Shown: positions 5,260-51,383 of the stretch, piece by piece
Layout: every line of letters begins with the position of its first letter
Numbering within the stretch: the first letter of the stretch is position 1
NCBI GenBank assembly: GCA_937928795.1
Contig: CALFWB010000116.1
Location: 1 to 55,328, forward strand
Reading direction: 5' to 3'
DNA from: an uncultured Anaerolineales bacterium
GTDB lineage: Bacteria; Chloroflexota; Anaerolineae; Anaerolineales; UBA4823
DNA length: 55,328 bases
Position numbers and translations under genes: made by a program
Notes under the pieces: generated by a model
Database searches by the model: none
Told to the model about the DNA's origin: nothing
Seen by the model: the letters and a program-made list of their open reading frames with translations, nothing else

Positions 5260-5337
5260 GTGTACACTCAAAAGTTGTTGGCAACATTGCTTTGTAGGAC
5301 AACTCATTGAGTTGTCCTACAGCTTTTGCGTGGACAC
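5260..5337 (+). mobile_element. 78-bp MITE-like element, copy 1
   Basis: The element has left end GTGTACACTCAAAAGTTGT and right end in GCGTGGACAC. It is flanked by a perfect 8-bp direct repeat GGTGATTG at 5252-5259 and 5338-5345. The internal palindrome has 11-bp arms AGGACAACTCA and TGAGTTGTCCT around one base. It lies between the epimerase start and the small redox gene. Five further copies occur in this window. Confidence 0.9.
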
Positions 5338-5632
5338 GGTGATTGGATAGATCGTTCTAAAAGCCATTATTTGCGCGTCAGCTTTCAGAAGTATGCGATC
5401 ATCCCAGCAAAGGTTGTCTTGACTCTAACTAACGTTTGGTAGTAAAGGCAGCAAATTGTGCGTCAATCTCAGGTCGCAATTCGATAACAATACGAGCCTG
5501 GATTGGGTTTTAGGCAATCAGGCGCGCTATGCGGATGATGCTACTGCGCTAGGAAAGTAAAGCCCGAACCGGGCGCAGTCCGAATCTCATCCCAAACTGA
5601 CCGAATTTCGTAAGGACTCGATGACATTCATC
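5338..5632. other. Intergenic stretch with a possible coding remnant
   Basis: No gene is supported here. On the plus strand a 43-codon open stretch without a start codon (5429-5560) reads as protein-like sequence, with DNNTSLDWVLGNQ followed by ARYADDATALGK, then TAA. It may be the tail of a decayed gene, but I recognise no family and it could be chance. Confidence 0.25.
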
Positions 5633-5664
5633 ATATTCATTAAATCGAATATATTGGGTATAAT
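5633..5664 (+). promoter_or_regulatory. Probable promoter with small inverted repeat
   Basis: A perfect -10 TATAAT lies at 5659-5664, about 36 bases before the ATG at 5701. The -35 region (TTCATT, 5636-5641) is poor. It overlaps an inverted repeat ATATTC-N8-GAATAT at 5633-5652, a layout seen at ArsR/SmtB-type operators. A poor -35 plus an overlapping dyad suggests regulation, but no regulator gene is nearby. Confidence 0.45.
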
Positions 5665-5700
5665 TTGGCAAAGAATTCAATATCCACTGCGGAGGCAAAG

Positions 5701-6012
5701 ATGATTACGGTTAAGGTATTAGGACCTGTTTGCGCAAACTGTAAAAAAGTCGAAGGGATTGTGCGCAAAGTCATTTTCGAGATGGGATTTGAAGCCGAAG
5801 TAATCAAGGTGACCGATTACGCCGAGATCATGAAATATCCCATCCTCTCGACGCCCGGCTTGGTGATTGACGAGAAGCTGGTCTGTTCGGGGCGCATTCC
5901 CACCCCGGCCGAGGTTACGACTTGGTTAGCCGATGCGGTCCTGCAGCACGAGCAAGCTACATCACCGCATCTCTTTACACAGAGGCTTAGGGGGTTGAGT
6001 TTTGAGTTTTGA
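5701..6012 (+). CDS. Small thioredoxin-like CxxC redox protein (thioredoxin_3 type)
   Basis: The product is 103 residues from the ATG at 5701, which follows GCGGAGGC. It starts with beta-strand MITVKVLGPV and the redox site Cys11-Ala-Asn-Cys14, then a helix. LSTPGLVIDEKLVCSGRIP is the cis-proline region (Thr51-Pro52 approx.) of the MTH895/TM0996 family. These small proteins are usually near 80 residues. Here the last 20 or so (from about LQHEQATSPH) look like an added tail running into low-complexity TGAGTTTT repeats, as if the original stop was lost. Family members often accompany ArsR regulators and DUF318 permeases, but neither is present. Its redox partner is unknown. Confidence 0.75.
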   Translation: MITVKVLGPVCANCKKVEGIVRKVIFEMGFEAEVIKVTDYAEIMKYPILSTPGLVIDEKLVCSGRIPTPAEVTTWLADAVLQHEQATSPHLFTQRLRGLSFEF

Positions 6013-48728: not shown

Positions 48729-49213
48729 AATTTATAACCGATCTGGCGCAGAAAATCCTTGCGCCAAGCGATATCCTCCTCACCTTCCACGCCTTTTGGC
48801 GGAAAGCCATCTACAACCCCAAGGATGCCGCGCCCTTGTTCGGTCTCGGCGATCAGTACTTCCACCGGGTTTGCCGTTGCGCAGAAAATGCGGCACACCT
48901 CGGGGATCATTTTGATTGTGTTCAACACGTTGATAGGGAAATAGCCTTGCCCCAAGAAGAGAATGAAAGAGTGCCCGGCGCCAATGGCAAGGGCGTTCTT
49001 GTGAGCCAATTCGATGAGGGTAGCATCGGTGCCGCTCCAGCGCACCAGACACTTGCCGGAAGCCTCACAAAACGCCAGTCCAAAGCGAATGCCCGGCACA
49101 GTGCTGACCAACGCTTCGTGAATGTCCTCCACGGTCTTAATAAAATGGCTCTGCCCCAGAATAAAGTTAATTTCTTCGGGCTTTTCGATTTTGACTGTGA
49201 GAATGTTTGCCAT
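48725..49213 (-). CDS. Adenosine-specific kinase family protein
   Basis: The 162-residue product starts at ATG 49213 behind CGGAGGTTAAGG; a longer frame to 49396 is rejected. EEINFILGQSHFIKTVEDIHEAL, FGLAFCEASGKCLVRWSG and GVVDGFPPKGVE match the DUF355/adenosine-specific kinase family known from archaea and thermophilic bacteria. A P. aerophilum homologue was structurally studied and given that name; its physiological role is not settled. It is single in its direction. Confidence 0.88.
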   Translation of the reverse strand: MANILTVKIEKPEEINFILGQSHFIKTVEDIHEALVSTVPGIRFGLAFCEASGKCLVRWSGTDATLIELAHKNALAIGAGHSFILFLGQGYFPINVLNTIKMIPEVCRIFCATANPVEVLIAETEQGRGILGVVDGFPPKGVEGEEDIAWRKDFLRQIGYKF

Positions 49214-49284
49214 CCTTAACCTCCGAGCGAATTTGATGAAAATCACCGAGTAACCCACGGGGATTACTCTAAGTACTAAGTGCT

Positions 49285-50991
49285 CTATGGCACATAGATT
49301 GGCAAGCTCTGCACCAGAAAAGCATCGCCAACGTGCTGGACAAGGAAGTCGAATTGGGTCAGTGGCGGAAACTCTTCCACATCTGCCCCACAACATGGAC
49401 CGAGAACAAACAGGCTCCCATCGGGATTCTGCAACTCGACAGTAAAGCGGAACTGATCGGGCGAAAGCTGCGCGACCTGCACCCAGTTTTTCACCGTCAG
49501 ATTACAGACAAAGCCGTTCTGCTGACAGGCTCTTGTCCACAAAGCCAGACGATCCTCCGCAGGAAGGTCGGGATTCATCTCAGCGAGCCAGGCGTAACTC
49601 CCCCCGTAAAGTTCGACTACAGCCTGGTAATCTGCCTTTTTGAGCGCATCAAGGTAGGCAAGCAACACCTGTCGAGCAGCTTCTAATGCGGCAGAGTCTT
49701 GGACTTGAAGAGCCTGATCGGCGATCTCTTGGGCAAAGCGGCTGATGTATTGCCGCTCATCTGCATCGGCTTCTTTTTTGCCCTTGCCGTTGAAAACGAT
49801 CCGCAAGGTCATCCCATCCGCAGCGCCTGAGTCCCCTTCACTGCTCTCGAAAGGCAGGAAGGTGTCTAGCCAGCGGTAGAGCTCTTGCATTTGCCCAGCC
49901 GTCAGGTAAATTTTCTCTACGCCGAGCTGTTGGGCAGGGCGACAAGAGCTAATTTCGGCAATGCCGCTGCGGTAAATCAGCACATCTTCACAGAAGCCCG
50001 CTATGCCTCCTTCGCGGTGAAAGGCAATTGCCAGCGAGGAGGTGGACCTTGCCTGCGGATCGTGTTCCTGCCAGAGTTGACGCGCCCATTCGGCTAACAT
50101 CCGTTGTTCGGTAGAGGTGGCTGTTACGCTTCCCTGACCGCGAAAGATCAGCGTTCCACTGGAGATTTGCACATCAAAAGGAGCATATTGCTGAGTGAAC
50201 CATTTCACTTCTTGACGGCGTTCTCGCCCTACCAATGGTACAGAGGTCAAAGATTGGTCGCAAACGCCAAAAGAGAGCAGGTCCTCATATAGCAAGACCT
50301 TCTGACAAACCCCGCCTTCCTCTCCTTGCCATTCCAAAATGGCATCACCACTCTCCGCCTTGGTAGGGAGCGCCAAACGGACATCGCTGCCGCTTAAGTC
50401 GGTATGAAACTCATAGCGCTTTCCCTGGGATTCTAGGATGACACGAAAGCCGGGGGTAATCACCTGGGCGCACATCAAGCCCGGCGTTGCAATCCCCAGA
50501 CAAGCATCCGGCCATTCAACGCTTTCAAAGCTGAGAATGCCCACCTCTTCGGGAGAGATACCCAATTGGGCAGCCAGCAACTGCTGAGCGGAGAGGGCTG
50601 CGCCGGGCAAAAAGCGCACCAAAACACCATCTTCGCTGACGCGAAATTCGTATTGCACCCCTTCACCTAAGAGAACGCCTTGATAGCCTGAGATGATGAC
50701 CTCAGCACAGGCTTCGCCCTCTTGCGGTAAACCTAGGCAGCTATTTGGGAATTGGCGCTCTTCTACCGAGAAAACTTCCAACTGTTCAGGCGGAACGCCA
50801 AGCTGTTGGGCGATGGCTTGGCGAGCTGTCTCGACGGCTTGGGCGGGGATGACGGCGGTTGGCGCAGCGGGTTGTTGGACTTGAGGAGACCCCTGCGGCG
50901 CGGAAGGCGATGAGACCAACGGGCTACAAGCAACGGCTAGAACCATCATCCAGAGAATGATCATGAACCAAAGGGGCTGGGAGGATTTCAT
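49285..50991 (-). CDS. Lipoprotein with duplicated cysteine-pair modules
   Basis: The 568-residue protein has a lipobox (WMMVLAVAC, Cys22) and a Pro/Gln/Ser linker. Two tandem modules (about 50-128 and 130-208) each hold an LGxxPEE(Q/V) helix, then FPNSCLG or WPDACLG, GxxCAEVI or GLMCAQVI, GYQGVLL or GFRVIL, and YEF. The paired Cys in each module could form a disulphide. Later parts (about 215-400) contain two copies of a beta unit with KVLLYEDLLSFGVC and EDVLIYRSGIAEISSC. The last 130 residues may be an NTF2-like fold. The ATG follows GAAGGAGAAAG. It is extracytoplasmic; the function is unknown. Confidence 0.75.
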   Translation of the reverse strand: MKSSQPLWFMIILWMMVLAVACSPLVSSPSAPQGSPQVQQPAAPTAVIPAQAVETARQAIAQQLGVPPEQLEVFSVEERQFPNSCLGLPQEGEACAEVIISGYQGVLLGEGVQYEFRVSEDGVLVRFLPGAALSAQQLLAAQLGISPEEVGILSFESVEWPDACLGIATPGLMCAQVITPGFRVILESQGKRYEFHTDLSGSDVRLALPTKAESGDAILEWQGEEGGVCQKVLLYEDLLSFGVCDQSLTSVPLVGRERRQEVKWFTQQYAPFDVQISSGTLIFRGQGSVTATSTEQRMLAEWARQLWQEHDPQARSTSSLAIAFHREGGIAGFCEDVLIYRSGIAEISSCRPAQQLGVEKIYLTAGQMQELYRWLDTFLPFESSEGDSGAADGMTLRIVFNGKGKKEADADERQYISRFAQEIADQALQVQDSAALEAARQVLLAYLDALKKADYQAVVELYGGSYAWLAEMNPDLPAEDRLALWTRACQQNGFVCNLTVKNWVQVAQLSPDQFRFTVELQNPDGSLFVLGPCCGADVEEFPPLTQFDFLVQHVGDAFLVQSLPIYVP

Positions 50992-51305
50992 CTTTTCTTT
51001 CTCCTTCTGAGTCTACTTTCCATCAGGGCGGATAGCCTTAGAATGGAAAAACACGGATGGAAATCTGAGAATCACTTAAGAACTCACCACTGAGGACACA
51101 AAGCGCACGGAGGCTGTCATTCGGGTTACTCTCCATATGCTGTGCGCGCTCTGTGGTAGGATGACACTTTTGCAGTGAAACCATTTCTACGACTCCAACG
51201 TTGCCGATCCGATTTTCGTTCCAAAGGTATGGCAGCTCGGTTTTTCTCTCGCTGCAGCGAATCATACCTTCTTTTTGGACAACTGCCTACCCCGCCCCCT
51301 TCCCT
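50992..51305. other. Intergenic stretch before MITE copy 6
   Basis: No gene is supported. ACCACTGAGGACACAAAGCG (about 51089) resembles a common dispersed intergenic repeat. No promoter is evident. Confidence 0.35.
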
Positions 51306-51383
51306 GTGTGCACTCGAAAGTTGTTGGCAACACTGCTTTGTAGGACAACTCATTGAGTTGTCCTACAACTTTTGCATGGACAC
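51306..51383 (+). mobile_element. 78-bp MITE-like element, copy 6
   Basis: Left end GTGTGCACTCGAAAGTTGT, right end TTTTGCATGGACAC, with a few substitutions from consensus. It is flanked by perfect 9-bp direct repeats CCCTTCCCT (51297-51305 and 51384-51392). Confidence 0.93.

Follow-up and report, generated by a model that had tools for sequence, protein, structure and literature searches.

The 55,328-nucleotide contig CALFWB010000116.1 of an uncultured Anaerolineales bacterium, analysed here over its whole length and called the window, carries six copies of a 78-bp repeat, which raise the question of what they are, what moves them, and what determines where they land. We consider it highly probable that the six repeats represent a single miniature inverted-repeat transposable element (MITE), likely mobilised in trans by a transposase of the ISKra4 family, and that 51 of 88 distinct copies in the genome stand at a fixed distance from predicted host promoters, with 14–17 bp between one end and the −35 box. 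This fixed distance was absent from the preliminary description of the window, whose own claims are taken up below.

Structure of the 78-bp element

Re-reading of the window placed the copies at 5260, 11932, and 16749 (plus strand), 40048 and 46243 (minus strand), and 51306 (plus strand), and the preliminary description of them proved correct in all details. All six are 78 bp long, begin with GTGT, and end with ACAC, and the flanking direct repeats noted earlier were reproduced, with 8/8, 8/9, 8/9, 9/10, 8/8, and 9/9 matching bases, respectively. In the consensus of 94 full 78-bp copies, the termini GTGTGCACTCAAAAGTTGT and GTGTCCACGCAAAAGTTGT are identical at 17 of 19 positions, as expected from the two mismatches described for the 19-bp inverted repeats, and the interior is a 31-bp palindrome with 15-bp arms, TTGTAGGACAACTCA-[T/A]-TGAGTTGTCCTACAA. 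The element is therefore short, gene-less, and bounded by terminal inverted repeats, as is typical of MITEs. When up to three mismatches were allowed, the 19-nt end matched 12 times in the window (six copies with two ends each), compared with 0.16 matches expected from shuffled sequences. The earlier statement that no transposase lies nearby holds for the 30 window open reading frames (ORFs) scanned with Pfam; the remaining 46 of the 76 ORFs of at least 100 aa had no Pfam scan.

The palindrome centre, MITE position 48, was occupied by T in 62, A in 31, and C in 1 of the 94 copies, and no more than five variants were found at any other position. Since a perfect palindrome that is inverted, or flipped as a hairpin, shows the change only at its centre, the T/A split at position 48 may be a trace of cruciform or hairpin turnover.

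Copy number and target-site duplications

To count the element, the genome's own assembly (3.29 Mb, 128 contigs) was searched with a 47-nt pattern at up to three mismatches. This search gave 126 copies (65 forward and 61 reverse), and the reversed pattern gave none. The preliminary description had expected hundreds in the genome; the element is indeed present in many copies, and the figure of hundreds was somewhat high, though 126 is a lower bound. In contigs C7, C29, C46, C66, C70, C91, and C123 of this genome (G000), a MITE copy lies no more than about 150 bases from the contig end; the assembly thus seems to break at this repeat, and the true copy number is probably above 126. Of the at least 126 copies, 103 distinct ones were collected, and exclusion of 7 truncated or divergent ones left 96 full copies. 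A further 2 were set aside for short flanks and 6 for shared flanks, leaving 88 for the promoter count, and 86 of the 96 entered the ORF test.

Tabulation of the flanks over the whole genome, which the preliminary description had proposed as a check, revealed exact duplications of 8, 9, and 10 bp at 25, 30, and 1 of the 96 full copies, respectively, and at 31, 36, and 3 copies when one mismatch was allowed. When left flanks were paired with the right flanks of other copies, the corresponding values were 0.085, 0, and 0. By a stricter score, a duplication was present at 70 of the 96 copies, nearly always of 8 or 9 bp. Exchange between copies was considered as the cause of the missing duplications at the other 26 and rejected, only two candidate pairs being found among them, one of which was exact.

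Joined flanks were also used, in 102 queries, to search the genome for empty sites, and 13 of these queries had a junction-spanning match, several being self-matches. Of seven cases aligned, five were clear (the window copies at 16749 and 46243, L052, L094, and L061) and two were weaker (L100 and L038); in each of the five, the flanks, once joined, match a MITE-free repeat elsewhere in the same genome along a stretch that includes the junction. The copy at 16749, for example, interrupts a dispersed repeat whose uninterrupted relative in L050 is 93% identical over 152 bp. For empty sites in congeners, one 17-kb query was used; genes aligned at 71–83%, and none of the alignments listed spanned the MITE sites.

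The element was absent from the 60 relatives searched, including all five congeners. Divergence from the consensus averages 1.6 positions per copy, and 22 of the 94 copies show none. We infer that the family spread recently, after the species split from the sampled congeners. In the congener G001, locus L077 contains around 1511–1553 a palindrome that resembles the MITE interior over a 40-bp match (GTAGGACAACTCG...CGAGTTGTCCTAC) and has no terminal repeats; the MITE interior may derive from a host hairpin.

The duplicated flanks at 70 of 96 copies, the split repeats with unsplit relatives, and the absence from 5 of 5 congeners support the earlier assignment to MITEs with target-site duplications. 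The duplications and split repeats also bear on another explanation, namely that the repeat is a non-mobile palindrome, similar to repetitive extragenic palindromic sequences or to terminators, multiplied by some other route. Such a palindrome would fit the single long hairpin predicted when the element was folded as RNA (z −6.8 and −5.9) and the mostly intergenic location of the copies. However, it is contradicted by the duplications, by the split repeats, and by terminal repeats held in common with complete insertion sequences (ISs, see below), and we regard it as extremely improbable.

Position of insertions relative to predicted promoters

Promoters were predicted from sequence by scoring TTGACA/TATAAT pairs with a spacing of 16–18 bp. 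Base composition outside the left end of the MITE showed a T-rich start at positions 16–18 and a TATAAT-like box near 40–45. Among 94 left flanks, the −35 box started at position 16 in 16, at 17 in 29, and at 18 in 6, and other offsets up to 80 gave 0–5; in 95 right flanks, positions 16, 17, and 18 gave 4, 4, and 3. Scoring of the −10 box alone yielded a left peak at 39–41 in 35 of 93 flanks (background, 0.3 per position) and a right peak at 39–40 in 12 of 93. With shared flanks removed, 51 of 88 copies had a promoter-like site with its −35 start at 15–18 on at least one side. Twelve of 13 control intervals gave 1–7 copies, and the interval 9–12 gave 15.

A second, smaller promoter cluster, with the −35 start at 9–12 and thus about 6–7 bp nearer the element, accounts for these 15 of 88 copies and is unexplained. 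It is accompanied by a small −10 peak at 33–34, which is present at the window copies at 5260 (TATGAT) and 46243 (TATAAT).

The promoter-bearing side was strongly biased: of the 51 copies, 40 had the promoter on the left only, 9 on the right only, and 2 on both sides (left-right bias, p = 9e-6), so that the left end is directed toward the promoter about 4:1. The peak covers no more than one or two bases, and its position depends on duplication length. At copies with 8-bp duplications, the −35 start was at 16 in 12 of 15 sides, and with 9-bp duplications at 17–18 in 21 of 22 (Fisher p = 2.8e-6). The distance from the duplication to the −35 box was 7 bp in 23 of 30 well-scored sides, and that to the −10 box was 30 bp in 22 of 30. 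Since the −35 start shifts with duplication length and the 7-bp gap stays constant, the promoter-proximal cut looks fixed.

The insertion point was outside ORFs in 71 of 86 copies, compared with 119 of 430 random points, and on 43 of 49 promoter-bearing sides the nearest ORF pointed away from the element. At intergenic copies, the left gene was directed away in 57 of 70 and the right gene in 36 of 70. The excess outside ORFs is what would be expected if the promoter association merely reflected the survival of intergenic insertions, with no targeting. Against this, survival alone is insufficient to produce a peak that is narrow, shifts with the length of the duplication, and is lopsided (40 left-only vs 9 right-only), and we judge this explanation quite unlikely.

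Candidate driver of transposition

The ISKra4 family is a Mutator-like relative of IS256. The preliminary description had pointed out that 8- to 10-bp duplications match IS256, IS1595, ISAs1, or some IS4 members and had left the driver unnamed; the duplication lengths stand, and the evidence points instead to the ISKra4 family. The end sequence outside the MITE itself matched 34 stretches in genome contigs, of which L188 was examined and the others were taken from their titles, mostly Gram-positive, as chance or gene matches. L188, an Anaerolineaceae contig (G251), carries a 128-bp element with MITE-like ends and the duplication CAGGTTTT. In genome G016, the same end precedes a frame of an ISKra4-type transposase, and L221 is this same G016 element. 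When 251 genomes of the order were searched for the family, ISKra4 transposases were detected in 25 at E values up to 1e-10, and 30 loci were returned. Two of these are complete ISs with matching ends, L205 (1491 bp, 8-bp duplication) and L225 (1473 bp, 9-bp duplication). The frame of L205 is interrupted near the C-terminus and at 195.6 bits falls short of the curated cut-off (205), which the open frame of L225 exceeds at 244.1 bits; the L225 protein appears in public records as an ISKra4 family transposase of an Anaerolineales bacterium. The search for a full-length IS with matching ends, also proposed earlier, was thus successful, in other genomes of the same order. Over 13–20 bp, the MITE and the complete ISKra4 elements have a common end sequence, so that the element shares its ends with an autonomous relative, as MITEs do. 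At L207, L208, L214, L222, and L229, a 15–17/20 end match adjoins the transposase C-terminus. A 111-bp MITE with ends of this kind is found close to L226, and the best match at the remaining ISKra4 loci was 12–14/20. Because complete ISKra4-family ISs carry the same ends together with 8- and 9-bp duplications, a likely driver can be named.

The features of the MITE also agree with those given for the family in the portions consulted of Guerillot et al. (2014; PMC3942029). Duplications of 8 or 9 bp are reported there, as found exactly in 25 + 30 of our 96 copies (10 bp in 1); ISKra4-group repeats are 18–39 bp with a terminal cytosine, and those of the MITE are 19 bp with C as the last base. Part of the group inserts upstream of sigma-A-type promoters, and the MITE does so, for predicted promoters, in 51 of 88 copies.

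Another family making 8–9-bp duplications, for example IS256, could instead move the MITE, the resemblance to ISKra4 being confined to the ends. In the genome itself, the ISKra4 transposase is represented by no more than 38 aa at a contig edge, and the transposases of IS256, IS1595, and ISL3 were not searched there; among the classes named in the preliminary description, the DDE_Tnp_1 transposases were, with no match in this genome. The last result speaks against a derivative of the IS4, IS5, or ISAs1 type (DDE_Tnp_1). The 13–20 bp of end sequence common with complete ISKra4 elements argues for that family, and IS256, described as inserting at random in the consulted portions of PMC3942029, is difficult to reconcile with the position-specific insertion of the MITE, which speaks against an IS256 derivative. 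A driver from another family is therefore improbable in our view, and ISKra4 remains the favoured one.

A single-copy piece on contig C38 was set aside: the right end is present, no other copy was found, and its 44-aa frame has no family match. The end of the same contig (L065, 2464–2691) also encodes a C-terminal transposase fragment of the IS1 family (Pfam DDE_Tnp_IS1, E = 6.8e-6) that has no relation to the MITE ends. In the five congeners, no ISKra4 transposase match was obtained, and the G016 transposase piece had no relative among the viral sequences scanned.

Related elements in other genomes

Three further small families with GTGTGCACGCAAA ends were found, of 128/129 bp (L188, G251), 204/205 bp (L238, L246, G102), and 111 bp (L226, G056). 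Exact matches to the GTGTGCACGCAAA end numbered 31 in G251 and 26 in G102. Four of five paired short elements in G251 and G102 have 8-bp duplications; at L226, 6 of 8 bases are alike, and one end of its 111-bp element has diverged. These elements share the GTGTGCACGCAAA ends of the 78-bp MITE but differ from it in interior and length, and the promoter preference of the ends examined is weak. A promoter at 16 or 17 was seen at the ISs L225 and L197 and at the 111-bp MITE of L226, and was absent at L205, L188, L194, L196, C38, and C36. Promoter targeting is thus well supported in the genome of the window alone and is suggested beyond it.

Several observations weigh against the interpretation as a whole. 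No clear duplication was found at 26 of 96 copies, and 37 of 88 have no promoter at the main offset; the promoters are themselves sequence predictions, and the control interval 9–12 is raised (15 of 88). In other genomes, the promoter stood at the offset in 3 of 9 elements, and in 3 of 32 ends from four genomes, where controls gave 0–1, three short-flank ends were counted as misses, and one IS was counted repeatedly. An intact ISKra4 transposase was not found in the genome of the window, in which two matches to the family model, the first of them within a 941-aa frame of C79, had E values of 0.0016 and 0.016 and failed to reach the cut-off. In favour of the interpretation, this genome does encode, where contig C36 ends, 38 aa of an ISKra4 transposase C-terminus (61% identity, E = 1.3e-7), followed by a stop and GGCGTACGCAAAAGTTGT, an end similar but not identical to those of the MITE; the contig appears to break inside a multi-copy IS.

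Individual copies in the window

Three of the six window copies stand at the main offset. Copy 2 (11932..12009, plus) is flanked by a 9-bp duplication (8/9) at 11923–11931 and 12010–12018, and at its right end lies a predicted plus-strand promoter at 12027..12054 (TTGACG 12027–12032, TATAAT 12049–12054), followed by an rpoC-like ORF (12319–16593). Copy 4 (40048..40125, minus), with a 10-bp duplication (9/10) at 40038–40047 and 40126–40135, has at its left end a predicted plus-strand promoter at 40142..40170 (TTGACA 40142–40147, TACACT 40165–40170) upstream of a metH-like ORF (40210–43860). At copy 6 (51306..51383, plus; 9-bp duplication CCCTTCCCT at 51297–51305 and 51384–51392), a weak promoter is predicted at the left end on the minus strand (51261..51289; TAGGCA 51289–51284, TATGAT 51266–51261), and the downstream minus-strand ORF (49285–50991) has no Pfam match.

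Copy 1 (5260..5337, plus) lies between 8-bp duplications GGTGATTG at 5252–5259 and 5338–5345. A −10-like TATGAT on the minus strand (5227–5222) stands 33 bp outside its left end, at the secondary, unexplained offset, and a minus-strand epimerase ORF (4146–5183) starts beyond this box. Neither copy 3 (16749..16826, plus; 9-bp duplication, 8/9, at 16740–16748 and 16827–16835) nor copy 5 (46243..46320, minus; 8-bp duplication TGTCAAGG at 46235–46242 and 46321–46328) has a promoter at the main offset; a minus-strand TATAAT (46209–46204) is found 34 bp beyond the right end of copy 5. Apart from the MITE, the window contains at 6295–6466 a G+C-rich, partly tandem dispersed repeat of the CCCTCACCCC...GGGGTGAGGG type, which has many matches in all five congeners, most of them in G003.

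Discussion

TnGBS, ISLre2, and some members of the ISKra4 group are already known to direct their transposition to promoters. In the portions of PMC3942029 consulted, TnGBS and related ISs insert in an oriented manner 15–17 bp upstream of the −35 region, the orientation is ascribed to the dissymmetry of the repeats, and 13 ISKra4-group ISs with 83–100% alike repeats have promoters on both sides. On this partial description, the 78-bp MITE resembles the ISKra4 group (p-MULT 4) in its ends, which are common with two complete ISs, in its 8–9-bp duplications, in its fixed distance upstream of predicted promoters, and in the occurrence of promoters on both sides where repeats are nearly alike. It differs from that group in having no gene and more than 100 copies in one genome, and in its strong left-end bias despite repeats that are 89% alike. 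With TnGBS and ISLre2 (p-MULT 3), as far as the same portions describe them, it has in common the position 15–17 bp upstream of the −35 box and an orientation ascribed to repeat dissymmetry; those are autonomous elements, whereas the matched ends of the MITE belong to ISKra4-family elements. Other bacterial MITEs, such as MITEAba12 and the Tn3-derived TIMEs, are likewise small, gene-less, bounded by terminal repeats, and moved in trans, but their drivers differ. The term MITE does not occur in the main text of PMC3942029, and no promoter-targeting MITE was recognised in the literature searched, as judged by titles and the starts of abstracts.

In the mechanism that we propose, an ISKra4 transposase would act in trans by recognising the terminal repeats and would be guided to promoter DNA, perhaps through contact with promoter-bound RNA polymerase. 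Cleavage on the promoter-proximal side would then fall 7 bp upstream of the −35 box, and that on the distal side another 8 or 9 bp away; because the two terminal repeats differ slightly, the left end would be turned toward the promoter in about four of five insertions.

About a hundred young copies in one genome provide enough independent insertions for a single-base view of the targeting rule. The constant 7 bp between a duplication of either 8 or 9 bp and the −35 box marks one of the two cuts as anchored, and the question of how the transposase is guided becomes directly testable. Since the element is predicted to form one long hairpin as RNA, and since its end takes the place of the sequence immediately preceding the promoter, an effect of the MITE on expression is possible. 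As a tentative view, a gene-less 78-bp element may exploit the promoter homing of ISKra4 transposases and serve as a promoter tag throughout the genome. The transposase would dock beside promoter-bound RNA polymerase and always cut 7 bp ahead of the −35 box, and the copies of the element would form an oriented promoter map and may tune dozens of genes, including rpoC and metH. Such a map would make promoter architecture visible, without experiment, in a lineage that has not been cultured.

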